Shown here piece by piece: positions 1,651-57,472 of a stretch of 64,000 nt of DNA (positions are counted from its first letter, which is position 1; the number at the start of each line of letters is the position of its first letter). The notes below the pieces were generated by a model that ran no database searches, was not told where the DNA came from, and saw only the letters and a program-made list of their open reading frames with translations. This stretch comes from Bolinopsis microptera. Taxonomy: Eukaryota > Ctenophora > Tentaculata > Lobata > Bolinopsidae. Location of the stretch: the NCBI RefSeq assembly GCF_026151205.1, contig NC_087080.1, positions 15,941,337-16,005,336 on the forward strand, in the 5' to 3' direction. The translations under genes were made by a program, and so were the position numbers.

Positions 1651-2254
1651 TTTTAGTTCAATCTTGACACAATTTTAAAATTATAATTTAATTATTTTAT
1701 ATATATGTATTGTCCATAACTAGGGTGGCCTGCTAACAGAACCATGATCTACCTTGATTCATCCTTCAGCACAGAGAAAAGCTCCTTTTTTTATACATTA
1801 TGATTACAGAGGATCTGATATTTAGATATATATTGCTGTGCTGTAAAAATTGACTTTATTTATTTATTTATTTATTTTCTGAGATTAATTCCAGCTGCCT
1901 GACAATACTTGATGGAAGTCTTTGCATTAGCTGCTGGTGTTTATCCTTGTAAAACTTCTCATTTTCTGTCTTGATGTTCAGTTTCACTTCGTCTATCTCC
2001 CCTTGGTTGATTTTTAGGGTATTCTCTTGATTTATGATGGAATCTGCAAGCTGTGCAGCCATTTGCACAGAGTTTTGATTTCCTCCATTTCATCATTTCC
2101 TCCATTCATCATTTCCTCCATTTACACTAAATGTTTTGTTGCTGCTGATAGTGATAGTAATCTGATAAGCTGATAACGCGCGGCCTGACCTGCCTTTTAG
2201 CCACGTCTTGTTAACCAGTTTACATCCTACACCTACTTTTACACCCTCTATACC

Positions 2255-4063
2255 ATGTCTTCTGAGCCTAGTTCGAGTCCTACTAACCTAAGCTTGATCC
2301 CCTCGAGTCCTCTGGAGTCCCACAGCCCTACCTCTAGTTCGAGTACCACGACGCAGAGCGACACATCTGAAAAGGGGTTGCTGGGCAGTGGTGCCCCCAC
2401 CACTGCCGCAGATCAAAAACACTGCTCGGCAAACCCTCAAGCTGAAGGTAAGATAAACGTCGAAAATCACAGTACGCAGACAGAGTTTGTTGGTTTTTGG
2501 GTACCTACTTTTACGCCAGAAACTTGCCTCGAGCTACTGCCGTCACTTACACCGGACCAACTTTATCGTGAATCTTTAAGTGCCGGACTCTGTAAATCTA
2601 CAAACAAAACGCTACGAAAACCATACATGACAGCAAAGCTAAATCTAGACTCTAGATACTATGATCATCTTATCAGAAATCCAACTGATAAGCAGACTAT
2701 ACACGGTAATCTAACCTCCGATTTTTGCATGCTGCTGGAAAAAGCCGAACAGACGCTTGACGAATACAAGGAGGTGATAAGGAGCTCTAGTTCTCTCGTC
2801 GCTAGGAACTCTACTCCCAACACTACTTCGGATCCCTCAACCTCCGTCACAGGTTCGCCAGCCGGACACGAGGAAGTACTAGAAGCTACTCCGGTAAGAA
2901 GTTTGCGATCAAAGTTTGAGTTTGAAACGCATAATGTTTGTGATGGACTGGACTTTCAACGCATAGGATCACGTGACGTCTCTTACTTCGGCTCCAGTAA
3001 ATACAGTTACGGCAGTATTACCCATCGCGCTAAGGCCTACCCACCATCTGATCACGCTGTAAATAAGATACTAGACTGTATAGCTGACGAACTAGACGAT
3101 CCCACCTTCAATAGGGATAACGTTACTTGCATGGTCACTAGATACCAGACAGGCTCAGACTCTATCCCGTTTCACTCTGATAATGAAACAGGCTTAACGG
3201 GTGAAATCATCACTGCCAGCTTTGGGGCCACTCGCACCTTAACTTTCCGTAACATAGTCACTGATGAGCGACGTGAACACGAACTAAGGAATGGCACAGT
3301 GTACGCAATGACCACAGAGTCTCAGTTTTTCTGGGAGCATGCGATACACCCCGAACCTGGCGTCACCTCGTGTCGTGTGTCAGTGACCTTTAGACGCATA
3401 GACAAGCCCATGCGCACGCACATTCCTAAAATCCATGAACCGTCAATAGCACCATCCGACCCCCTGAGACCCTCCAAACAGACTGTCCTATACCTTACTG
3501 ACTCTATGATACGTAACACCCCATCATCTTTCCCCTCTAACTTTCGTGTCATAAAGCGTGACATGTACCAACTCACGGACTTAATGAAGTTTGAAAATTT
3601 TTTTGAAAACTGCGATTATGTGATTATATCTTCCGGTATTAATGATTTGTCGAGATATGACCATAGAAGCTATACACTTTCCCGTGAAATTAGGGACAAT
3701 TTTAACTACTTGTTTGCTAGATACCCAAAAACAGTGTTTGTTTTCAACTCCCTTCTTAGAACGAGATTTGCATGGTTAAATAAGGAGGTTGATTTGTTTA
3801 ACCGCTGCATGTTTGACTTTAGTCTGATCGAAAATCGTAACTTTTGGTTTTTCGACTCCCACCATATTTGTAGTGTGATATTTAACAAAGGGTTTGAGAT
3901 TTTAGATAGATCTGGAAATGGGATTCACATTACTCAGCTGCCCAAGAGTGAGATAGCTAACTGTCTGGTGACCGGTGTTCAAAAACTCTCTATGCGAAGC
4001 GAGAAAGTTCGAAAGCACTGGCCATTAAGGCGGGAGTTTGTCTCGCTCTTGCCTGGTAACTAA
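2255..4063 (+). CDS. LINE ORF1: AlkB-like 2OG-Fe(II) oxygenase plus SGNH-hydrolase-like domain
   Basis: The protein is 602 aa. Residues 1-60 are Ser/Thr/Pro-rich and probably disordered; 80-210 are unrecognised. Residues about 225-385 match AlkB: metal ligands H307-x-D309 (PFHSDNE) and H362 (FFWEHAIH), then R374 and R380 in CRVSVTFR, the six-residue arginine spacing that binds 2-oxoglutarate in AlkB. Residues about 410-585 look like an SGNH hydrolase: block I D416-S417 (YLTDSM), block III G461-x-N463-D464 (SSGINDLS), block V H558 (GNGIH). The usual block V aspartate (DxxH) is replaced by N555, so the triad acid may be missing or supplied elsewhere. AlkB enzymes oxidatively remove N-alkyl groups from nucleic acids; here the natural substrate could be the element's own RNA or cDNA (inference). 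The first ATG of the long frame is used as the start. Confidence 0.9.
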   Translation: MSSEPSSSPTNLSLIPSSPLESHSPTSSSSTTTQSDTSEKGLLGSGAPTTAADQKHCSANPQAEGKINVENHSTQTEFVGFWVPTFTPETCLELLPSLTPDQLYRESLSAGLCKSTNKTLRKPYMTAKLNLDSRYYDHLIRNPTDKQTIHGNLTSDFCMLLEKAEQTLDEYKEVIRSSSSLVARNSTPNTTSDPSTSVTGSPAGHEEVLEATPVRSLRSKFEFETHNVCDGLDFQRIGSRDVSYFGSSKYSYGSITHRAKAYPPSDHAVNKILDCIADELDDPTFNRDNVTCMVTRYQTGSDSIPFHSDNETGLTGEIITASFGATRTLTFRNIVTDERREHELRNGTVYAMTTESQFFWEHAIHPEPGVTSCRVSVTFRRIDKPMRTHIPKIHEPSIAPSDPLRPSKQTVLYLTDSMIRNTPSSFPSNFRVIKRDMYQLTDLMKFENFFENCDYVIISSGINDLSRYDHRSYTLSREIRDNFNYLFARYPKTVFVFNSLLRTRFAWLNKEVDLFNRCMFDFSLIENRNFWFFDSHHICSVIFNKGFEILDRSGNGIHITQLPKSEIANCLVTGVQKLSMRSEKVRKHWPLRREFVSLLPGN

Positions 4064-4579
4064 CGGTTAAATACAAACTCTCAAAGCCGTACCCCAGCCT
4101 ACTACTTATACTTGCCGCGCCAAAATTTTCACAAAATTTTTACAAAATCTTTAAGGGATTATAGCTTACATCTTATGGTTATAATGAAAACCCTCGCATA
4201 AAAATATATAGTCATGCCCGTGCTCTTATCAGCTTATCGTAAGTTACTAGAATTCTTGCCCGAGTTTTTTAAACACTTTAGAATAGTTCTGAAATCAGTA
4301 CCGCTATCGTAATATTGTAATATTGTAGACTACGTTACGATTCTATCTACACACAGAGCTGTATAGTTCTTGATAGGTAGGTCTAACAAGTTTTCTTTTT
4401 CTTCTTTACGCTTTCTCAGCACACAGTTTATTCCTCATTCATTCACACGCACACACATTAGCATTTTATACATATTCTTAAACTGTACAAGCTATTCTAT
4501 ACACCATACTATACACTCTTATCTATTTAATATCTTACTTAATTATTCACAGATATCTGGTATTTACACATCTTGAACA

Positions 4580-7500
4580 ATGGTTGAACCTAGTTTCAAA
4601 TCACAATGCTCAAGTTGCTTCGGGTGGTCTTATGCTCCTAGAAATGTTTTCATTTGTCATGTATGTGACAAACCAGTTCATAAAAAATGCCTCAAAGATT
4701 ATCTTGGTTGTATTACATGCTGTCTAAACCTAATACCTGGCTATAGAGTAACTTCCTACGAACTTAATGATAATTACAATACAATAACCCCCACTTTTAA
4801 CCCCTATATTCGTTCTCACGTACTGAATCAAATAGGCGAACTTACTGATGAAATAGATTCCAGCGAAATCGATCTCAACAATTGTATATCGGAGATATTG
4901 GTTAGCTGTAAGTACCAACACCCTGATAATATCAAGACCCCTAGCAATCGCGAATTTAAGATACTTTCGTTAAACGTTAGATCACTCGTGAAGAATATCT
5001 CAAATTTTAGAGAAGAAATGGAAACATTCTCCAAATTTGACCTCATCTGCCTCAATGAAACCAACTGTAAAATTTCTAATCTTCCTAATGGTCTGAACGA
5101 CATTGAAATCGAACAGTTTTACGAGCCCTTTATCAAAGAACCTGCACGTAAATCTGGAAAAGGAGGTGGTCTTGCGCTCTATGTTAACAAACGCGTTTGT
5201 GATTACGATAAAATACAGGAACTCGAACTCAATCTGAGTCCAGAAGAAGTTACTTGCGGAGAATTTCAATTGCTTAAAATCAACAATTTTAAAAACGGAA
5301 ATAAGACAAAAATCATCGTAAATTTCTACCGCTCGCCATCCACAAGCCCTAAAAAATTCCTTGAAAAGTTTGAAAACGTGCTCAGGGGTCTTGATAGACA
5401 CTCCAGAAAGCAGATAGTCTTCCTGGGTGATGCAAATATTGATCTTATAAAATACGATACCGACGCTTACAGCCAGGATCTTATAAGCTTACTAGAAAAA
5501 TATGGGTTTGCCCAGACTGTCTCCAAGCCTACCAGGGTAACTGACCACAGTGCAACGCTTATCGATCACGTGTATACTAATCACGTGACCAACGTTATTA
5601 GTTGTAATGTCGTGACGTTGGATATGTCAGATCATCTCGCGGTTAGCACGACCATTAGTTTAGGAGCCACACCTAGTTTGAACGAGCGATTCCGTAGTCA
5701 ACGTGTAAAGAACAACAACACTAGCTTGAAATTAGAGGCCCGTGTATTTAACGAAGCTAATCATGCTAAATTCAAAGAGCTTATTGTAAGTGAGACCTGG
5801 GATGATGCTACCTCCTCAACGTGCGCTGATGAACAATACAATTCCATCTATGAAACGTACATGAAACACTACAATACTGCATACCCCCTGAAGCGCGACA
5901 GTTCGAGAAGAAAATTCGAAAGAGCTGACCCAAAGCCTTGGATCTTACCCTGGCTTGAGGCGGCATGCAACCGCAAGAAGTTACTTTTTTTTGAAAAAAC
6001 TATAAATCCATCACAAAAAAACTGCGACGCGTATGATAAAATGAAAAAGTTTTGTCACAAACATGTGAATCTAGCCAAAGAAAAGTACTATAAAAAAATG
6101 TTTGACAAATACCAAAACTGCTCTAAAAGTCAATGGAAAATTATCAATGGCCTCCTGAACCGTAACAGAAAAAAGTTCGGACACACCCGTCTGAAGGACG
6201 ACGATGGCACGATTATAAGCTCCGATCTGGCAGTCGCTGAGAAATTTAACGGCTACTTCTCCGGTATTGCAGCCAGTATCAAGAGGCAAATCGCTGCCCG
6301 TCGAACCTTTGACCCAGGTGGTTTCAAGCATTTTCTTAAGGCTTCGTGTAGTAACTCGATGTTTCTTAAGCCTACATCACACGGTGAAGTCCAAAAGATA
6401 ATATCAGGGCTTAAGAACAAGCCCACACTCGATTGTAAAATTGAGCCATTGAAAATTGCAAACAGCTGCGAAAACTTTACCAGGGCACTAGCTAATGTCA
6501 TTAACTGTTCGTTCTCCAGTGGTACCTTCCCAAATGCTCTAAAAACTGCGAAAGTCGTTCCTATCCACAAAGGTGGTTCAAAATTGGAAGTAGCTAATTA
6601 TAGGCCGATCTCTCTTTTGGGATCATTCTCGAAAATTTATGAGAAACTTATGCATGCTCGTGTTTTAGAATTTTTAGATAAGAACGATTCTCTTTTCGAA
6701 AATCAATACGGATTTCGGCCAGGAAGATCGTGCGAACATGCACTGCTCAATGCCCAAAATTCTATACTACACTCTCTGAATAAGAAACAAATTTCCCTAC
6801 TGCTCCTGCTCGATTACAGTAAAGCCTTTGACGTGCTTGATCATGAGACCTTGCTTAAGAAGCTTGACCATTATGGGATCAGGGGAGTCGCGCACGAATG
6901 GTTTAGATCTTACCTTTGTAATCGATCTCAATACGTAACTTTAAACGGAACTTGCTCTTCTAGCATGCCCATAGTTTACGGCGTACCTCAGGGTAGCATT
7001 TTAGGACCTCTCTTATTTGTAATTTATATAAACGACCTACCTGGAATTAGTGATTTTGCAAAGTTCATCCTTTATGCCGACGACGCAAACATATTAATTA
7101 GTGGAACCACCCTAGAAGAAATACAATTAAAAGCTAATCAGCTAATTTCACGTCTTGTAGATTGGGTAGGTGTTAATGGACTATCTTTAAATGTAAAAAA
7201 GACGTGTTACATGATTTTCACTAGAAAAAGAATCGACTTCAGCGGCTTTAATTTGTCCATTGACAACACTGTAATCGAACGTAAGACTGAAGCAAGATTT
7301 TTAGGAGTGATCCTAGACGAAAAGCTCACTTGGCAAAAACACATTACGGCCGTTAGAATAAAGATGGGTCGCTACCTCGGAGTTATGTATAAGCTAAAGC
7401 ACCTTCTACCTATCAAAGCCCGCCTAAACATTTTCCAAAGCCTTATCCAATCCCATCTAAATTTCTGTTCTTTAGTGTGGGGATTTGCCTCAAAATGTCA

Positions 7501-8062
7501 CATTGAATCTCTGTTCACCAAGCAAAAGCAGGGAATTAGAGCTGTTATGTCAGGATATGTAAATTATAGATATAAAGACGGCAATCCCCCGGAGCACACA
7601 AAAAGTGCGTTTAGATTGCATAATATCCTAACAGTCCATAGCGTCATTGTAAAAAACGCTCTTATTCTACTACACAAAGTAAGGAACATGCCAAGCCTTC
7701 TCCCTAAATCCATCAAAGAACTTTTCCCTCACGATATTCCCACCTATAATTCCACATACGAACATAACCTTTCTTGGTTCACAACTTACAACGGCCCAAC
7801 ATTTAGAAATACTCTTTTCTTCAAAGGACCCATGCTCTCTATTACAAAGCAAAGTAAGGATATAACTATTCCAAGTTCTACCTTTTCAATTGAAATCTTT
7901 AAAAATTCAGCTAAGCGCGAACTCCTCAAGCTGCAAAGCTCAGGAGACGATGAAAATTGGCCAAATTTCTTACTTTATAGTATACCTGGGCTAAGAAAGT
8001 CTCAAAGAGAAGGGCGCTCGCAAATAGACTACAGCACCGAGTTAGTAAGCGACAACGCGTAA
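4580..8062 (+). CDS. LINE ORF2: C4HC3 zinc module, APE endonuclease, reverse transcriptase
   Basis: The protein is 1160 aa. The N-terminus has eight evenly placed ligands, C10, C13, C26, C29, H34, C37, C44 and C47, a PHD-like C4HC3 order but with only six residues in the last loop. The APE-type endonuclease spans about 127-355: LSLNVRSL (N132), LICLNET (E160), FLGDANIDL, the LIDHVYT motif and the terminal S350-D351-H352. The reverse transcriptase spans about 630-890: NYRPISLL, YGFRPGRS, LLLDYSKAFD, GVPQGSILGP and the catalytic YADD at 832-835. The C-terminal thumb region ends with a typical CR1/L2 tail. All catalytic residues are present and the frame is intact. It nicks target DNA and copies the element RNA at the nick. 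How it is translated downstream of ORF1 across a 516-base gap is not evident. Confidence 0.95.
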   Translation: MVEPSFKSQCSSCFGWSYAPRNVFICHVCDKPVHKKCLKDYLGCITCCLNLIPGYRVTSYELNDNYNTITPTFNPYIRSHVLNQIGELTDEIDSSEIDLNNCISEILVSCKYQHPDNIKTPSNREFKILSLNVRSLVKNISNFREEMETFSKFDLICLNETNCKISNLPNGLNDIEIEQFYEPFIKEPARKSGKGGGLALYVNKRVCDYDKIQELELNLSPEEVTCGEFQLLKINNFKNGNKTKIIVNFYRSPSTSPKKFLEKFENVLRGLDRHSRKQIVFLGDANIDLIKYDTDAYSQDLISLLEKYGFAQTVSKPTRVTDHSATLIDHVYTNHVTNVISCNVVTLDMSDHLAVSTTISLGATPSLNERFRSQRVKNNNTSLKLEARVFNEANHAKFKELIVSETWDDATSSTCADEQYNSIYETYMKHYNTAYPLKRDSSRRKFERADPKPWILPWLEAACNRKKLLFFEKTINPSQKNCDAYDKMKKFCHKHVNLAKEKYYKKMFDKYQNCSKSQWKIINGLLNRNRKKFGHTRLKDDDGTIISSDLAVAEKFNGYFSGIAASIKRQIAARRTFDPGGFKHFLKASCSNSMFLKPTSHGEVQKIISGLKNKPTLDCKIEPLKIANSCENFTRALANVINCSFSSGTFPNALKTAKVVPIHKGGSKLEVANYRPISLLGSFSKIYEKLMHARVLEFLDKNDSLFENQYGFRPGRSCEHALLNAQNSILHSLNKKQISLLLLLDYSKAFDVLDHETLLKKLDHYGIRGVAHEWFRSYLCNRSQYVTLNGTCSSSMPIVYGVPQGSILGPLLFVIYINDLPGISDFAKFILYADDANILISGTTLEEIQLKANQLISRLVDWVGVNGLSLNVKKTCYMIFTRKRIDFSGFNLSIDNTVIERKTEARFLGVILDEKLTWQKHITAVRIKMGRYLGVMYKLKHLLPIKARLNIFQSLIQSHLNFCSLVWGFASKCHIESLFTKQKQGIRAVMSGYVNYRYKDGNPPEHTKSAFRLHNILTVHSVIVKNALILLHKVRNMPSLLPKSIKELFPHDIPTYNSTYEHNLSWFTTYNGPTFRNTLFFKGPMLSITKQSKDITIPSSTFSIEIFKNSAKRELLKLQSSGDDENWPNFLLYSIPGLRKSQREGRSQIDYSTELVSDNA

Positions 8063-8342
8063 AGAAAGATCACTCGCGACAAATGACTATGATCTTTTAT
8101 CAACAACATATCATTTTAATTTCACTGCCATTATGCAATGCCGAATTTACATCTGCCGCGCAAAACTTTTTATCTATTATTATTAAATAGTAATTAGCAT
8201 GTTTACAAATTGCGACTTCAACCAGTTTTGCAGACCGTTAGTTATATAGTACTTTTAGTAGGGCATTTATTTTAATATATTTATTTTACATTATTATATT
8301 TTAGTGTGACTTCTATAATTTCATTTATGTAATAACCATTGA
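8063..8342 (+). other. Probable 3' UTR of the intact LINE
   Basis: AT-rich, non-coding sequence following the ORF2 stop. It contains AATAAA near 8345 at the junction with the next fragment. No poly(A) tract or clear 3' microsatellite was seen. Confidence 0.5.
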
Positions 8343-8672
8343 TCAATAAATTGCGGCACACGCCAACCTCCACCGTGGGGTTTCAAAACAAAAATTCCTT
8401 CTGTGAGTCACAGCAACGTTACCCATGTTCATACCACCAAATCTGGCTGGAAGACAGAGTATTTCTCGCACATCATCATCAACAAAGTTTTTTCCAATGA
8501 TTGCTGGTATGAATTCCTTTTGTATAACATGCTCTAAAGTCCTGAACAGATGACTGATGTTAGGGGTGGTCCTCATCACGTATAACCTTTTTTTTACACG
8601 CCATAAAGATATGCACAATAGGCTAACTGCGGTTCTGCTCCTGCAATTCAGGCTAGTTCCTTCATGGGTCAT
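8343..8672 (-). pseudogene. C-terminal fragment of a retrotransposon reverse-transcriptase polyprotein
   Basis: A 109-codon minus-strand frame contains the sequence order RTTPNISHLFRTLEHVIQ, FIPAIIG, REILCLPARFGGMNMGN. This resembles the region downstream of the reverse transcriptase in a widespread class of invertebrate retroelements (a pattern like RTxP...LE..I...IPA..G......LP.R.GG). I recognise it only as a family pattern and cannot assign the clade. No polymerase motifs are present, so it is a fragment, opposite in orientation to the LINE it abuts. Confidence 0.5.
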
Positions 8673-18929: not shown

Positions 18930-20170
18930 AAGCGGCCTTTATGCACTTTAAAATTTAATCTGAAAGGGGAGTCTGCAGAGGTACTTGCAAGTGCCTTTAG
19001 TTCGGTGTTTGTTAACGAGCCACTCGGCCCATTACCTAGAAGTTATAGTAAGAATACTAATAGTATATCTGATATTGTTATTACCTTTGATAAGGTTAAA
19101 AAGGAACTATTAAAGCCTAATATTTTTAAAAGCACTGGCCCAGATGGGCATCATCCAAAGCTGCTTAAGTCCCTAGCTGGAGATGCTAGTTTTGTAACCG
19201 CTCTTACTAAATTATTTAGTGCCTGTAGTGATACTGGAAATCTTCCGGAGATATGGAAGTCGGCATCTGTAGTTGCACTTTTTAAAAAGGGCTCTAAGTC
19301 TGACCCTCTTAACTATAGACCAGTTTCTCTTATTTGTATTCTTTGTAAAGTTTATGAACAGTTTGTTAAATCCCATGTGTTAGAATTTTTAGAAGACCGT
19401 ATTTCAAAGGACCAACATGGGTTTGTTAAAGGAAAATCTTGTTTGTCAAATCTTTTGGAGACTTTCGACACTATACTTAATTTAATAGATGAAGGTGCTC
19501 CTGTGGACTTATTTTATTTTGATTTTAGTAAAGCTTTCGATTCTGTTCCCCATTATCGCTTGATTAACAAGCTAGAGAGTCTAGGGATAACTGGTAAAGT
19601 TTTAGATGTAATTACAGATTTTATCTCAAATAGAACTATGAGAGTGTGTGTAGAAGGTGAAACTTCAGAGTGGAAGATTGTATGGTCAGGAGTTCCCCAG
19701 GGATCAGTCCTTGGACTATTACTATTTGTGTTATTTATTAATGATTTACCAGATAACATTAAAAGTAAAGTTAAAATATTTGCTGATGATCTTAAGCTTA
19801 TAGCTAATGCCTCCGAGCATGAAACTATAGTTAATGATCTGAACGAAATAGAGATGTGGGAGAGTAAATGGCTTTTAAAGTTTAATCCTACTAAGTGTTC
19901 GGTAATGCATTTAGATGTTAACGATAACCCAAGATCAAGTTATTCTCTTAATGGAGTTACATTGGCAGAATCTGTACAGGAAAAAGATTTGGGAGTTATA
20001 ACCCATATAATAACTCTCTGCTTTGGAATGAACAGATTAAGGCTTCAATATCTAAAGCCAACAGAATGATATGTTGGATTGTTAGAAATCTGATTATCAG
20101 GGAAAAATCTGTGATGATATCCATTTACAAAGCTTTGATAAGACCCCATTTAGAGTATTGTGTTCAACTG
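18930..20170 (+). pseudogene. CR1-like LINE ORF2, upstream half (reverse transcriptase)
   Basis: The frame 19005-20069 holds the RT in order: STGPDGHHPKLL, ALFKKGS, NYRPVSLI, HGFVKGKSC, YFDFSKAFDSVPH, GVPQGSVLG and the catalytic FADD (FADDLKLIA). Coding similarity to the second CR1-like copy extends upstream to 18970 (EVLASAFSSVFVNEP). The endonuclease is missing. A frameshift near 20040 moves the thumb (SKANRMICWIV..., YKALIRPHLEYCVQ) to the frame ending at 20170. There the element is broken by an RTE-like insertion and resumes at 25624. The copy is therefore 5'-truncated, frameshifted and interrupted. Confidence 0.85.
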
Positions 20171-24551: not shown

Positions 24552-25583
24552 TTGGTTAATGGGGAGCTGACAGACTGGTTTGATGTTAACTCAGGCACAG
24601 GTCAGGGTGACATTCAAGCACGTCCTGTCTTTAATTTCTGCCTAAACATTTCTGCATTTCTGGCTGAGACCAACAAGATCATCAGTCAAGGCGCAGTGCT
24701 GCAGAAAGAGATGAAGACGGTCGAGGAAAAGGTCATTCTGGACACCGATTATGCTGATGACATGGCTATTATGGACAACTCAGGGGAAGGCCTACAGGAA
24801 TCAACTGATCTATTAGTTCATTACAGCTCCTACGCTGGGCTCAGAATAAATGCAAAGAAGACCCAATGCATGGCTGTAAGCAAGTGCGCCTCCCAGCGAC
24901 CTTTCATCAAGGATGATTGTATTGAGCTGTCGGTTGAGGGTGAACCCGTCGAGCAGGTTAGCAACTTTGTCTACCTGGGTGCAACTATCAGTGGGGATGG
25001 GACAATCAGCAGAGACCTGGATGTCCGTATCCAGAAGGCTAATGGCGCCTTTCATCAGCTCTGGAACATTTGGAATAGCAGAACTATAAAGACTCCAACC
25101 AAGATCAGGATCTATAGGGCTGCTGTCCTCACCATCTTGTTGTATGGAGCTGAAGTCTGGAACACCGCCAAAAAGCAGATGAAACGTTTCGAGGTTTTCC
25201 ATCAAACCTCCTTGAGAAGGATCCTTAGGATTGAATGGTTCTTTTATGTGACAAACGACGAAGTTCTTAAAAGGGCTGGCATCAAGTCAGTTGAGACTTT
25301 CATCAGTGCTGCCAGGCTACGTTGGTATGGACATGTAGTTAGAATGCCAGACTCTAGACTACCGAGGTTTCTGTTGAACTGGAAGCCAAATTATGGAAAG
25401 AGGTCAAGGGGCAGACCCCGTAAGAACTGGAAGTCCTGCGTACTCGAAGATGCTGCTAAGTTTACAGGTGTTGAAAACATCGACAACGACACAACAGAAG
25501 CTTTGGCTACCAACCGAGTACAGTGGAGACATATGTTACGCCGCCAACGCGATGTGTGTGATGCAGGCCACTCCAACGACTAG
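24552..25583 (+). pseudogene. RTE-like LINE reverse transcriptase, 5'-truncated
   Basis: The 343-codon frame starts inside the palm domain: VNSGTGQGD, then YADDMAIMD (catalytic YADD), then the thumb region VSNFVYLGATISGDG, ILLYGAEVWN, and the RTE-type C-terminus ARLRWYGHVVRMPDSRLPR with the basic KRSRGRPRKNW segment. The frame is open to its natural stop. The endonuclease and N-terminal RT motifs are missing because the copy is 5'-truncated; the 24-base stub left of the palindrome is the only upstream remainder. Confidence 0.85.
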
Positions 25584-26869: not shown

Positions 26870-28298
26870 TGTGAACAGATACGAACAGATGTAAACAGAT
26901 GCCATCTTACCATCAGCTTCATGAATCTTGCAACTATATAATTTACTTCGTAATCGTACAAACTCTGAGCCATACTTGCCCGCAAATTCATCCTTCATTA
27001 AACTGCATTGTTAGTTAAACTGAACAAATAATGTTCCTTGGGATAATTGCTAGTGTCAAAGTGACGTCTCATATCCTTGAAATCTTTATGCAAATCTGGA
27101 GTTTCAACCCAATAAAGTAAACTATCTGTATCCGTAAAACATAGTTTAATGTCACTATATTTAACCTTGAGAACATCATACCAGAATCTATACATTAACA
27201 ACTTTGACATATCCAGAATAGCAGCCCCTAAGTAAATCGGCTTATCTAAAGTTATTGTGGGTTTTACCATTTCCAGTCCAACTAACTCTGGTGAAAATAT
27301 CGTGAACCTCTTGAATCCAGGTTTGCTAGTCTGGAACTGATGCTGCTTTCCGTTCTCTAGCAATATATTGTTTACCCTCTTCCTAACAGATGCCATACTC
27401 TTGCCGAAGAACGAGTTGTTGAGTAGTTTGTAGAAGTATTTTCCGAACTGTGAAGTAGCAGCCTGTCGTTTAGCGGTGTTAAAATCAATATATTTCTTTA
27501 ACCAATCCGTCTGTTCAAACTCTAGTACCCTATGAATCTTATCGCAGACACCACCAATAGACAATGTAAAGCGGCAATGTGAATCTTATGCTTTAACTTT
27601 GGAAACAAATTAGATGCAAGCTTCTTTTGAAGAGCAGCAAAGTAAAACCCTCTTCTATTCATTGCTTTACGAGTAGCATCCGATACCATACCGTCCTCTA
27701 TCACCAGAGATTCAGGGAAAGGAGGGAGATCATTGAATCTGTCATGGTCTTCAGGATTCGTATGAACGTCACACTCGATGAAGGCTCCCTTATCCCTGTC
27801 GGGGTTCCAGGCCGCGATGTCGCTGACCGTAAGAAGTTTATCCTGCCACTTGAACTTCGAAGCAAGCAGTTTCTGACACATTGCCCATCCGTAGAGGTTG
27901 TTTGCATGAATGTATCCGAGGTAGCTTTCAGGTAATTCAGGATTGTAATCTGGGAGATGATGGTTATTTGCCTTTGCATACCGATGCGTGATTGTACTGA
28001 TTCCTCCTCGAATAGCCTGCTCAATGAAAGTATACATACCAGGATCACTGAATAATTCTAACTCGACTTTAGTAAATTTTAAGCCTGCATCCCACGTAAG
28101 ACTTGGAGCGGTATAATAATGAACAGGATCTAAATTATAAAATGATAAACATTCTGTCCTATACTGATGCAGCACCAAATCCAGGAGAACAACGTCAGAG
28201 GAAATGTAGAGGTGAACCATTTCATTGAGACTCTTCAGATCGAACTCCTTCCAGACTTTCTGTGCGTGAAGTAGTAACGGTAGCAGGACAACTTCCAT
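26870..28298 (-). pseudogene. Protein-primed type B DNA polymerase remnant (Polinton/Maverick-like)
   Basis: The upstream frame (28298 to 27522) reads from the end of the exonuclease domain into the palm: the YHxxDxxLL-type region is followed by NLDPVHYYTAPSLTWDA and the Polinton/adenovirus-like HANNLYGWAM motif. The next frame (27564 to 26998) carries GKYFYKLLNNSFFGKS and the catalytic FTDTDSLLYWV motif. The two frames overlap and are out of register, so there is a frameshift around 27522-27564. A further break near 26998 puts the conserved C-terminal KDEFAGKYGSEF region in a third frame. The N-terminal exonuclease is absent, as are integrase, protease, capsid and ATPase genes nearby. This is a dead fragment of a large DNA transposon/virus-like element. 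Confidence 0.85.
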
Positions 28299-28867: not shown

Positions 28868-30512
28868 AACCTCCCATTATTCCTGCAGTCGCTGCAGTCG
28901 CTCCACCACCTCCCATTATTCCTGCAGTGGTGGAGCGACTGCAGGAATAATGGGAGGTGGTGGAGAGACTGCAGGGACTGTAGGAATAATGGGAGGTGGT
29001 GGAGCGACTGCAGGAATAATGGGAGGTGGTGGAGCGACTGCAGGGACTGTAGGAATAATGGGAGGTGGTGGAGCGACTGCAGGAATAATGGAAGGCGGTG
29101 GAGCGACTGCAGGAATAATGGGAGGTGGTGGAGCGACTGCAGGGACTGCAGGAATAATGGGAGGTGGTGGAGCGACTGCAGGGACTGCAGGAATAATGGA
29201 AGGCGGTGGAGCGACTGCAGGGACTGTAGGAATAATGGGAGGTGGTGGAGCGACTGCAGGAATAATGGGAGGTGGTGGAGCGACTGCAGGGACTGTAGGA
29301 ATAATGGGAGGCGGTGGAGCGACTGCAGGAATAATGGGAGGTGGTGGAGCGACTGCAGGGACTGTAGGAATAATGGGAGGTGGTGGAGCGACTGCAGGAA
29401 TAATGGAAGGCGGTGGAGCGACTGCAGGGACTGCAGGAATAATGGAAGGCGGTGGAGCGACTGCAGGGACTGTAGGAATAATGGGAGGTGGTGGAGCGAC
29501 TGCAGGAATAATGGGAGGTGGTGGAGCGACTGCAGGGACTGTAGGAATAATGGGAGGTGGTGGAGCGACTGCAGGAATAATGGGAGGTGGTGGAGCGACT
29601 GCAGGGACTGCAGGAATAATGGGAGGTGGTGGAGCGACTGCAGGAATAATGGAAGGTGGTGGAGCGACTGCAGGGACTGTAGGAATAATGGGAGGTGGTG
29701 GAGCGACTGCAGGAATAATGGAAGGCGGTGGAGCGACTGCAGGGACTGCAGGAATAATGGAAGGCGGTGGAGCGACTGCAGGGACTGTAGGAATAATGGG
29801 AGGTGGTGGAGCGACTGCAGGAATAATGGGAGGTGGTGGAGCGACTGCAGGGACTGTAGGAATAATGGGAGGTGGTGGAGCGACTGCAGGAATAATGGAA
29901 GGCGGTGGAGCGACTGCAGGGACTGCAGGAATAATGGAAGGCGGTGGAGCGACTGCAGGGACTGTAGGAATAATGGGAGGTGGTGGAGCGACTGCAGGAA
30001 TAATGGGAGGTGGTGGAGCGACTGCAGGGACTGTAGGAATAATGGGAGGTGGTGGAGCGACTGCAGGAATAATGGGAGGTGGTGGAGCGACTGCAGGGAC
30101 TGTAGGAATAATGGGAGGTGGTGGAGCGACTGCAGGAATAATGGAAGGCGGTGGAGCGACTGCAGGGACTGCAGGAATAATGGAAGGCGGTGGAGCGACT
30201 GCAGGGACTGTAGGAATAATGGGAGGTGGTGGAGCGACTGCAGGAATAATGGGAGGTGGTGGAGCGACTGCAGGGACTGTAGGAATAATGGGAGGTGGTG
30301 GAGCGACTGCAGGAATAATGGGAGGTGGTGGAGCGACTGCAGGAACTGCAGGAATAATGGGAGGTGGTGGAGCGACTGCAGGGACTGTAGGAATAATGGG
30401 AGGCGGTGGAGCGACTGCAGGGACTGCAGGAATAATGGAAGGCGGTGGAGCGACTGCAGGGACTGCAGGAATAATGGAAGGCGGTGGAGCGACTGCAGGG
30501 ACTGCAGGAATA
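28868..30512. repeat. Minisatellite with 30- and 39-bp units
   Basis: The 30-bp unit GGAATAATGGGAGGTGGTGG plus AGCGACTGCA alternates with a 39-bp form that adds GGGACTGTA or GGGACTGCA. The array is about 1.6 kb. Because both unit lengths are multiples of three, one plus-strand frame (28950-30554, Gly/Ala/Thr-rich) and one minus-strand frame (30549-28861, Leu/His/Ser-rich) stay open end to end. The left edge (28868-28920) is an inverted partial copy, making a local palindrome. I regard the ORFs as by-products of the repeat. Confidence 0.9.
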
Positions 30513-38518: not shown

Positions 38519-38990
38519 TCAAGTGTGTCCCGATTGGTCCCCAACTTTATCTGCCCCAAGTGTTCCCCAAGTGTGCCCCAAGTAACTTTGTCCCCAAAGG
38601 TGCCCCAATAGTGTGTTAAGTTTACAAAAACTGTGCTTCAGGTCATTTTTTGCCTCAACTGTGCCCCAAGTGTGGCCCAAGTGTTCCCCACGTGTGCCCC
38701 AGCTGTGCCCCATCTGCATCTGCCCAAAGTGTGCCCCAACACTTGGGGCACACTTGGGGCATACTTGGGGCACACTTGGGGCTCACTTGGGGCACACTTG
38801 GGGCACACTTGGGGCACACTTGGGGCACATTTGGGGCACACTTGGGGCAAATGCAGCTGGGGCACACCTGGGGCAAAAAAATGACTTGAAGTAAACTAAA
38901 CACACTTGAGGCACACTTGGGGCACAGCTGGGGCAAAAATTCACTTGGGGCACACTTGGGGCAAAAAATGACTAAGGTAAACAATCTTCT
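38519..38990. repeat. Foldback minisatellite of TGTGCCCCAAG units, copy 1
   Basis: The left half is made of CCCCAAGTGTG units, the right half of the inverse CTTGGGGCACA units. The switch lies at about 38740. Flanking words are also mirrored (TCATTTTTTGCC and GGCAAAAAAATGA), so the block can form one long hairpin. The 11-bp unit is not a multiple of three, which gives several shadow frames with Trp-Gly-Thr repeats; none is a gene. Confidence 0.9.
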
Positions 38991-42540: not shown

Positions 42541-43023
42541 TCAAGTGTGTCCCGATTGGTCCCCAACTTTATCTGCCCCAAGTGTTCCCCAAGTGTGCCC
42601 CAAGTAACTTTGTCCCCAAAGGTGCCCCAATAGTGTGTTAAGTTTACAAAAACTGTGCTTCAGGTCATTTTTTGCCTCAACTGTGCCCCAAGTGTGGCCC
42701 AAGTGTTCCCCACGTGTGCCCCAGCTGTGCCCCATCTGCATCTGCCCAAAGTGTGCCCCAACACTTGGGGCACACTTGGGGCATACTTGGGGCACACTTG
42801 GGGCACACTTGGGGCACACTTGGGGCACACTTGGGGCACACTTGGGGCACACTTGGGGCACATTTGGGGCACACTTGGGGCAAATGCAGCTGGGGCACAC
42901 CTGGGGCAAAAAAATGACTTGAAGTAAACTAAACACACTTGAGGCACACTTGGGGCACAGCTGGGGCAAAAATTCACTTGGGGCACACTTGGGGCAAAAA
43001 ATGACTAAGGTAAACAATCTTCT
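42541..43023. repeat. Foldback minisatellite of TGTGCCCCAAG units, copy 2
   Basis: Same structure as the array at 38519, with exactly one extra 11-bp unit (alignment offset changes from 4022 to 4033 across the right half) and a few substitutions. Confidence 0.9.
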
Positions 43024-47455: not shown

Positions 47456-48720
47456 CTAATAGTAACAGGAGTGGAAGGATATACTGGGATCCACGGGAAT
47501 TAGAAATCCCGAACAGAGGGTGATTACAGCAGCACAAAAGTTTTGCAGGAACCACCAGGAGTGGAAGGATATACAGGGATCCACGGGAATTAGAAATCCC
47601 GAACAGAGGGTGATTACAGCAGCACAAAACTTTTGCAGGAACCGCCAGGAGTGGAAGGATATACTGGGATCCACGGGAATTAGAAATCCCGAACAGAGGG
47701 TGATTACAGCAGCACAAAACTTTTGCAGGAACCGCCAGGAGTGGAAGGATATACTGGGATCCACGGGAATTAGAAATCCCGAACAGAGGGTGATTACAGC
47801 AGCACAAAACTTTTGCAGGAACCACCAGGAGTGGAAGGATATACTAGGATCCACGGGAATTAGAAATCCCGAACAGAGGGTGATTACAGCAGCACAAAAG
47901 TTTTGCAGGAACCGCCAGGAGTGGAAGGATATACTGGGATCCACGGGAATTAGAAATCCCGAACAGAGGGTGATTACAGCAGCACAAAACTTTTGCAGGA
48001 ACCGCCAGGAGTGGAAGGATATACTGGGATCCACGGGAATTAGAAATCCCGAACAGAGGGTGATTACAGCAGCACAAAAGTTTTGCAGGAACCGCCAGGA
48101 GTGGAAGGATATACTGGGATCCACGGGAATTAGAAATCCCGAACAGAGGGTGATTACAGCAGCACAAAACGTTTGCACGAACCGCCAGGAGTGGAAGGAT
48201 ATACTGGGATCCACGGGAATTAGAAATCCCGAACAGAGGGTGATTACAGCAGCACAAAACTTTTGCAGGAACCACCAGGAGTGGAAGGATATACTGGGAT
48301 CCACGGGAATTAGAAATCCCGAACAGAGGGTGATTACAGCAGCACAAAACTTTTGCAGGAACCACCAGGAGTGGAAGGATATACTAGGATCCACGGGAAT
48401 AACAAATCCCGAACAGAGGGTGATTACAGCAGCACAAAACTTTTGCAGGAACCACCAGGAGTGGAAGGATATACTGGGATCCACGGGAATTAGAAATCCC
48501 GAACAGAGGGTGATTACAGCAGCACAAAAGTTTTGCAGGAACCACCAGGAGTGGAAGGATATACTAGGATCCACGGGAATTAGAAATCCCGAACAGAGGG
48601 TGATTACAGCAGCACAAAACTTTTGCAGGAACCACCAGGAGTGGAAGGATATACTGGGATCCACGGGAATAACAAATCCCGAACAGAGGGTGATAACAGC
48701 AGCACAAAAGTTTTGCAGTA
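47456..48720 (+). repeat. 90-bp in-frame tandem array (30-residue repeat), about 14 copies
   Basis: The exact 90-bp period gives a plus-strand frame (47520-48941) with the repeat ITAAQNFCRNRQEWKDILGS followed by TGIRNPEQRV. Variation is limited to a few synonymous or conservative sites (N/K before FC, R/H before QEW, RN/TN). The single-copy version of this segment is present once in each 1,086-bp unit downstream, so the array is an expansion of one exon piece. Each copy also carries CTTTTGCAG|GAACC, which looks like a splice acceptor. Two minus-strand frames are open only because the period is a multiple of three. Confidence 0.9.
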
Positions 48721-50908: not shown

Positions 50909-51309
50909 TCGAGGGTGATTACAGCAGCACAAAACTTTTGCAGGAACCACCAGGAGTGGAAGGATATACTGGGATCCACGGGAATAACAAATCCCGAACA
51001 GAGGGTGATTACAGCAGCACAAAAGTTTTGCAGGAACCGCCAGGAGTGGAAGGATATACTGGGATCCACGGGAATTAGAAATCCCGAACAAAGGGTGATT
51101 ACAGCAGCACAAAAGTTTTGCAGGAACCGCCAGGACTGGAAGGATATACTGGGATCCACGGGAATAACAAATCCCGAACAGAGGGTGATTACAGCAGCAC
51201 AAAAGTTTTGCAGGAACCGCCAGGAGTGGAAGGATATACTGGGATCCACGGGAATAACAAATCCCGAACAGAGGGTGATTACAGCAGCACAAAAGTTTTG
51301 CAGTAATGC
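50909..51309 (+). repeat. 90-bp array, four to five copies, inside the macrosatellite
   Basis: Same 30-residue repeat as 47456-48720 (ITAAQKFCRNRQEWKDILGS), with one Asp variant (QDWKDIL). It ends in the standard FCSNARHILNGQ tail and leads straight into unit c. Confidence 0.9.
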
Positions 51310-56578: not shown

Positions 56579-57472
56579 ATGAAGTGTCTTTTATCTGGCT
56601 CGTCGTTTGATCTCTTCTTGAGTTCTAAAACAAGCTTTTGCAGGAACCGCCAGGAGTGGGTTAACATTCTGTCAGCCATTGGAATAACAAATCCCGAACA
56701 GAGGGTGATTACAGCAGCACAAAACTTTTGCAGGAACCGCCAGGAGTGGAAGGATATACTGGGATCCACGGGAATAACAAATCCCGAACAGAGGGTGATT
56801 ACAGCAGCACAAAACTTTTGCAGGAACCACCAGGAGTGGAAGGATATACTGGGATCCACGGGAATTAGAAATCCCGAACAGAGGGTGATTACAGCAGCAC
56901 AAAAGTTTTGCAGTAATGCCAGGCATATCCTCAACGGCCAGGTAGTAATACTAATAGTTGTAATGATAACAGGTCGAGATTGTCAATTTAATAGATATCT
57001 GCTAAAATTATTTTACCAAATAAGATTTATTCTTATTATAAATCCCTTTTTCTACAGCTCACAGAGCTCCACAACGACACAAACTTTTGTGTGTCATCGA
57101 ACGATCGTTTTATGTATTGGAAGCGCCTGATATGATTAATATTGAGGATTATTTGTTTACACGATGTAGCACATAACAGTATTATAGACTGTGTAATAAA
57201 TGATACAGATTTACCGATATCCCCGTTACGGATCACTGATTTTACAAGGAATATTTATAGTATTTGTTAATGTTATTATCGTTTAACAATGTTGCCCAGC
57301 GTTGGCAATGTTGCCCACCTGGGCAAAAAAACCCCATGAATATAATAAATCCTAATGAGGATGTCGTAATGTAACTGTAAGTTATAACTTTATTTTCATT
57401 TATCTACGTGTATATTATTATTTTACATGATTCTGTTGATCTGTACTATTATGAACAATACGTTAAACTTTT
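56579..57472 (+). repeat. Macrosatellite unit h, 894 bp, with two extra 90-bp repeats and a 372-bp deletion
   Basis: Starts with the WVNILSAIGITNPEQ subtype, then two full 90-bp repeats (to FCSNARHILNGQ). The F-box-like region is deleted: ATATCCCCGTT at 57227 jumps directly to ACGGATCACTG. Arithmetic is exact: 1,086 plus 180 minus 372 equals 894. The F-box-like ORF is lost in this unit. Confidence 0.9.

Follow-up and report, generated by a model that had tools for sequence, protein, structure and literature searches.

We report that a 64,000-nucleotide stretch of the genome of the ctenophore Bolinopsis microptera (NC_087080.1, positions 15,941,337 to 16,005,336; hereafter the window) contains an autonomous, recently active long interspersed nuclear element (LINE) in which an AlkB dioxygenase domain is placed between a predicted coiled coil and an SGNH-hydrolase domain in an esterase-type first open reading frame (ORF1). 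A first-pass annotation of the window had described this gene as a fusion of AlkB and SGNH in one intact ORF beside an endonuclease/reverse transcriptase (RT) ORF, and profile matches, modelled folds and invariant residues all bear this description out. Beyond the window element, further LINE families and also Helitrons of this genome carry the AlkB and SGNH pair, and this recurrence turns one odd element into a recurrent accessory module. Judging from sequence and modelled structure, we lean towards the view that the AlkB domain is an active demethylase working on the element's single-stranded nucleic acid, with its catalysis, substrate and benefit to the element all presumed.

The window LINE and its AlkB-SGNH ORF1

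The LINE is about 6.2 kb long, carries two intact ORFs spaced 516 bases apart and was located by comparison with one other copy, L030. Its features, in window positions, are as follows.

2126..8368, + strand: LINE element, approximate limits (flanks compared with one copy, L030)
2255..4063, + strand: ORF1, 602 aa
2606..2797, + strand: predicted long helix or coiled coil, residues 118-181 (AlphaFold2 model, DSSP)
2876..3409, + strand: AlkB domain, residues 208-385 (profile match, sequence neighbours, modelled fold)
3173..3181, + strand: H307-S308-D309, predicted Fe(II) ligands HxD (H and D invariant)
3338..3340, + strand: H362, predicted third Fe(II) ligand (invariant)
3374..3394, + strand: R374...R380, predicted 2-oxoglutarate (2OG) pair (both invariant)
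3473..3994, + strand: SGNH-hydrolase domain, residues 407-580 (modelled fold, conserved residues)
3503..3505, + strand: S417, predicted catalytic Ser, block I (17/18 rows)
3635..3646, + strand: G461-I-N463-D464, block III (G, N and D invariant)
3926..3928, + strand: H558, predicted catalytic His, block V (invariant)
4580..8062, + strand: ORF2, 1160 aa
4607..4696, + strand: PHD-like zinc-binding stretch, ORF2 N-terminus (weak, E 0.061)
4964..5644, + strand: endonuclease domain, ORF2 residues 129-355 (PF03372, PF14529)
6566..7312, + strand: RT domain, ORF2 residues 663-911 (PF00078)

A profile search and a structure prediction, both among the checks proposed with the first-pass annotation, came out in its favour: ORF1 gives a strong AlkB profile match, and its AlphaFold2 model contains an AlkB-type double-stranded beta-helix, with the HxD...H and RxxxxxR letters present, and an SGNH alpha/beta fold at residues 407-580. 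Neither the SGNH profile PF13472 nor a PHD finger was matched by the window ORF1 in the profile search. The modelled helix, which would form a coiled coil, followed by the SGNH domain makes this an esterase-type LINE ORF1. Among the matches listed, the nearest folds and sequences of the AlkB domain are ALKBH2 and ALKBH3 (ALKBH2/3) rather than ALKBH5 or FTO, although the latter two also occur there; the structural matches further include the AlkB domains that plant RNA virus replicases contain. The human ALKBH2 and ALKBH3 proteins, which are 22-23% identical to the AlkB domain, are host repair enzymes that have neither a coil nor an SGNH domain.

ORF2 matches endonuclease profiles (PF14529, E 3e-10; PF03372, E 1.5e-7) and RVT_1 (E 8.5e-34), and the element is multicopy, with 5'-truncated copies and a common 3' end, as in non-LTR (long terminal repeat) LINEs with an apurinic/apyrimidinic-type endonuclease. 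The PHD-like stretch of a related ORF2, L028, reaches E 7.3e-5, still below the cut-off. By domain content only (esterase, PHD), the element would belong to the CR1/L2 lineage of the Jockey superfamily. The window copy and L030 share a 5' start (ACTAAATGTTTTG...) and a 3' end (...CACGCCAACC). The 5' limit is uncertain, and each copy adjoins different short tandem repeats there (window 2078-2123; L030 about 1820-1910), as if, in these two copies, the 5' insertion end were tied to repeat formation. No long direct repeat was found flanking the window LINE, nor was any target-site duplication obvious by eye in the flank comparison with L030.

Genome searches, in which 73 of 894 ORF1 candidates, 40 of 82 3'-end candidates and 40 of 6891 ORF2 candidates were scored, yielded at least seven complete, stop-free ORF1s (the window's included) that are 98-100% identical and lie on six contigs, as well as truncated ones, and at least 40 element 3' ends at 97-100% identity. 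So few complete ORF1s against so many 3' ends is as expected of a young LINE prone to 5' truncation. When coordinates were compared by hand, an AlkB ORF1 lay directly upstream in 15 of the 21 window-family ORF2 copies that start at residue 1; for the other six no upstream AlkB ORF1 was present among the matches listed, which 5' truncation or the limited number of candidates scored may explain.

Conservation of the two enzymes

We collected 89 homologues, 18 from the protein database and a further 71 through a profile of 11 LINE ORF1s; because database proteins were chosen by similarity, intact frames are favoured among them. In an 18-row alignment, H307, D309, H362, R374, R380 and Y297 are among the 19 of 178 AlkB columns that are invariant, and the first five are also invariant in a 19-row alignment. 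The Ser equivalent to S417 is invariant, as are the S, G, N and H together, in a separate 11-row alignment (A3). Of 87 proteins (the window ORF1 and 86 homologues, with P0089-P0091, which have no SGNH Ser, Asn or His, omitted), 78 retain the full set of eight catalytic letters from the two enzymes. Six of the nine exceptions are gapped at one site or several, being short, truncated or not aligned there, and in three of these (P0086-P0088) one of the two 2OG Args is missing as well; the other three differ by substitution only, at the SGNH His (P0041), the second Arg (P0080) and the first Fe ligand (P0085). The N-terminal parts have a mean pairwise identity of 0.25-0.27, compared with 0.43 for AlkB and 0.40 for SGNH.

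Two of the 89 homologues carry a species name. P0010 comes from Mnemiopsis leidyi, where the gene model joins AlkB to an endonuclease and is named a hypothetical protein; AlkB LINE ORFs therefore stand unrecognised in public annotation. P0089 is from the fungus Pseudovirgaria hyperparasitica. No relatives turned up when prokaryote and viral contigs were scanned for short peptide patterns.

An origin of the fusion in chance resemblance, a decayed insert, an assembly artefact or a host ALKBH gene beside a LINE is refuted at the sequence level, and no point in its support was found. The fusion is one intact ORF in the complete copies on six contigs, 86 like homologues exist in public data, and the ALKBH2- and ALKBH3-like genes of the host are separate loci (L001, L025 and L026) that stand apart from the element AlkBs in the tree.

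The AlkB-SGNH pair in other LINEs and in Helitrons

Four fetched LINE ORF1s (L019, L020, L021 and L024) contain PHD-like matches (E 0.0067 to 0.00012, all below the Pfam cut-off), and for a profile of this PHD-type group the nearest solved relative of the PHD part is the BPTF PHD (E 1.8e-5). A C4HC3-like pattern occurs in 47 of the 89 database homologues, and PHD fingers are known in the ORF1s of esterase-type, CR1/L2-like LINEs (PMC4120745). In a third LINE type (L013, L014 and L016), whose RT is very divergent, AlkB comes first, then the coiled coil and then SGNH. Another ORF2 family has five copies at 63%, of which four have 1236-aa frames. None of the five had an upstream AlkB among the scored ORF1 matches; the two that were fetched both have one, complete with SGNH in L050 and partial in L048, which lacks the first part of AlkB and whose frame continues from another RT. 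For L049, from the other 63% ORF2 family, AlkB and SGNH were looked for upstream and neither was found.

In the Helitrons, L009 runs into L047 as one 3388-aa frame (C10 16874382-16884545; L009 3383-10000, L047 3-4046) that reads, in order, SGNH, linker, AlkB, DUF6570, Helitron_like_N and PIF1 helicase. It thus combines in one protein the HUH Rep (PF14214, E 3.2e-22) and SF1/PIF1 helicase (E 3.2e-22) of a Helitron, with the motifs HLH, YVISY and Walker A GAGGVGKS. Its AlkB match has E 4.6e-21, and its SGNH has the letters GDS...GTN...H (PF13472, E 8.3e-6, below the cut-off). The linker, as read in L012 and L015, is Ala- and Pro-rich. Helitron_like_N was seen in L009 and L010, and DUF6570 in the next frame of L012; L011 (SGNH-AlkB) and L015 (AlkB only) were assigned to Helitrons by near-identical AlkB. 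The enzyme order is the reverse of that in LINEs, and the SGNH domains of Helitrons and LINEs could be separate captures, not joint with AlkB. Of 7994 candidates scored from the protein database, none was a Helitron-type protein at E <= 0.001, a weak result as the search covered the first 500 residues only.

Trees and origin of the AlkB domain

In the AlkB tree, the Helitrons and all LINEs except the coil type (L013, L014 and L016) stand opposite the three host genes and the coil-type LINEs (support 100/97). The coil-type AlkBs sit on a long branch beside the host genes and may be a separate capture; all 35 non-host AlkBs also fall on one side of a branch with the three host genes on the other, at a support (94/69) that is not decisive. 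The Helitron AlkBs group with the PHD-type LINEs (81/88, not decisive), and the alternative groupings with host genes or with coil-type LINEs are not rejected (approximately unbiased test, p 0.11 each). As far as these sequences indicate, the Helitrons may have acquired their AlkB part from PHD-type LINEs.

A tree of 13 RTs was compared with the AlkB tree. Both trees star the group of L017, L018 and L023 as well as the coil group; the window element and L022 are a pair in the RT tree and lie within a common starred 17-row group in the AlkB tree; and the PHD group, one starred clade in the RT tree, is intermixed with Helitrons in the AlkB tree. The agreement between the trees suggests that the AlkB ORF1 most likely descended together with the RT through long divergence instead of being a late acquisition.

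Selection on ORF1

The first-pass annotation would have fallen had the AlkB residues proved degenerate in all other copies, with a Ka/Ks near 1; in the copies and homologues examined they are not degenerate. Pairwise nonsynonymous to synonymous ratios (dN/dS, NG86) were computed for nine copies of the window family, six of a second family (44-46% identity) and five of a third (about 39%). In that order, the ratios are 0.33, 0.12 and 0.45 for AlkB, 0.36, 0.20 and 0.13 for SGNH, and 2.2, 0.29 and 0.71 for residues 1-209. The AlkB domain is under purifying selection, with few changes counted: silent-only and replacement variable codons number 7/6, 11/5 and 2/3 in the three families.

The high ratio of residues 1-209 (window 2255-2881) contrasts with both enzyme domains. 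Nine near-identical copies have 13 replacement and 2 silent-only variable codons there, which may reflect either relaxed constraint or positive selection.

Proposed role of the AlkB domain

Methyl groups of the 1-methyladenosine and 3-methylcytidine (m1A/m3C) type stop reverse transcription and base pairing. We propose that the coiled coil would multimerise the ORF1 protein (ORF1p), which would join the element RNA as in the ZfL2-1 precedent discussed below; that the SGNH domain would, also by precedent, bind or hydrolyse lipid or ester groups; and that the ALKBH2/3-like AlkB would oxidatively strip N-methyl groups from the single-stranded nucleic acid of the element. As a first guess at the substrate we take the m1A/m3C type, because such groups block reverse transcription and because the structural neighbours are ALKBH2/3; with these groups gone, more full-length copies would be made. 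Need of a single-stranded intermediate would explain AlkB and SGNH in Helitrons too. More tentatively, the pair might be a portable protection or anti-silencing module, common to LINE lineages and Helitrons, that clears N-methyl groups (damage or host marks) before copying and has been kept since both expose single-stranded nucleic acid, as RNA template or rolling-circle single-stranded DNA.

Several points weigh against our reading of AlkB as an active demethylase on the element's own nucleic acid. The AlkB fold family includes the N6-methyladenosine (m6A) erasers ALKBH5 and FTO, tRNA and other enzymes, and neither sequence nor fold decides the substrate, be it RNA, complementary DNA or host nucleic acid. 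The domain is acidic (isoelectric point 5.8, net charge -5), a property that does not argue for strong binding to RNA in general. In the tree, the AlkBs of the elements do not fall within the host ALKBH2/3-like genes. The variable AlkB codons are few, the third family's 0.45 being based on five, and the pairwise dN/dS counts reuse the same changes.

The chief rival to such template clearing, which we nevertheless consider unlikely, is that AlkB erases a silencing mark written by the host, either m6A on element RNA or N6-methyladenine (6mA) on element DNA or chromatin, to which a PHD finger would direct it. The PHD-like finger in related LINE ORF1s and many database homologues fits this, and for an AlkB-bearing DNA transposon such as a Helitron, repair of an RNA template is a poorer fit than a mark on DNA or chromatin. 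There is also a precedent in an ALKBH5-like protein of orchid Ty3/gypsy elements with m6A RNA demethylase activity in vitro (PMC9289625). The nearest folds and sequences here, however, are ALKBH2/3 and not ALKBH5/FTO, and the window ORF1 has no PHD match.

A purely non-catalytic use of the AlkB fold, as the nucleic-acid-binding module of ORF1p, would supply what esterase-type ORF1ps otherwise lack, as none of those then in RepBase had a structural RNA-binding domain according to PMC3905857. We regard it as improbable, as the Fe and 2OG ligands are invariant, and conserved far above the domain average, at AlkB identities between alignment rows down to 25%, and the domain is acidic.

Some ALKBH enzymes act on protein or lipid, and the repeated pairing of AlkB with SGNH in LINEs and Helitrons could be taken to mean that AlkB acts on such a substrate, perhaps with the esterase in membrane handling. 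Against this, the neighbours of the domain in both fold and sequence, ALKBH2/3, are enzymes that act on nucleic acids, and we give this option very little weight.

Comparison with known systems

Among known systems, the closest include the esterase-type ORF1p of CR1/L2-like LINEs. In its zebrafish representative, ZfL2-1, a coiled coil precedes an SGNH esterase, as here; the coil dimerises, and the esterase has hydrolytic activity and an affinity for negatively charged phospholipids (PMC3905857). The window ORF1 differs in the AlkB dioxygenase between coil and esterase, no AlkB being mentioned in the accessible portion of that paper, and an ALKBH2/3-like enzyme would fill the place of the RNA-binding domain missing from ZfL2-1-type ORF1ps. 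The ZfL2-1 esterase has no row among the fold and sequence matches listed, which is uninformative either way. For the ORF1s of 448 Jockey-superfamily elements, the accessible portion of PMC4120745 names RRM, CTD, CCHC, esterase and PHD domains and no AlkB.

The giant Phalaenopsis Ty3/gypsy elements are likewise retroelements with an AlkB-superfamily enzyme and intact Fe/2OG residues (PMC9289625). They are of LTR type, with an extra, separate ALKBH5-like ORF nested in plant ALKBH5 homologues, whereas here the carriers are several LINE lineages and the enzyme is ALKBH2/3-like and fused to SGNH. Plant RNA viruses also fuse AlkB into the replication protein of an RNA-based element, but theirs are viral polyproteins without an RT. 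In bdelloid rotifers, a GDSL esterase ORF3 common to LTR elements and Athena is, as here, an accessory enzyme shared across unrelated retroelements (PMC5408684); that case involves LTR and Penelope-like elements rather than LINEs and Helitrons, and AlkB, dioxygenase and oxygenase have no mentions in the main text.

Our literature search, an incomplete one of titles and abstract starts with preprints and most subscription journals outside its scope, returned no report of AlkB in a LINE or Helitron and no description of SGNH-AlkB Helitrons. Surveys by the Aravind group reportedly treat transposon-borne oxygenases. The esterase-type ORF1 is known, and what appears to be new is AlkB within it and the enzyme pair across transposon classes.

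Other features of the window

RT fragments lie at 19005-20069 (RVT_1, E 3e-33, profile 3-194) and 24552-25583 (profile 115-205, DUF6451); they overlap in the profile and are therefore not simply one split gene. The approximately 4.4 kb between them (20.2-24.5 kb) ends in long, oppositely oriented arrays of 11-bp units. Near-identical TGCCCCAAGTG/ACACTTGGGGC array blocks at 38552-38973 and 42574-43006, about 4 kb apart in direct orientation, are possibly the ends of another element. Much alike copies of a 90-bp (30-codon) tandem unit occur in the same orientation within long open frames at 47466-48718, 50911-51303 and 56635-56913, and the Pfam matches in these frames look like artefacts of repetition. 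A 69/246-bp tandem repeat at 28927-30499 leaves both strands open for more than 530 codons. A fragment on the - strand at 27522-28298 resembles DNA polymerase type B (PF03175, E 1.1e-4, below the cut-off) and is possibly a Polinton remnant.

Significance

If its AlkB is active, this LINE brings a nucleic-acid demethylase of its own into the retrotransposition particle, and N-methylation of transposon RNA or DNA, be it damage or a host defence mark, would be a selectable barrier to transposition. The finding also bears on the open question from ZfL2-1 of how esterase-type ORF1ps handle nucleic acid. In a probably early-branching animal, two classes of transposon that move by unrelated mechanisms share one enzyme pair, and its presence across unrelated mobile elements suggests a common tool for protecting or unmarking genetic copies.
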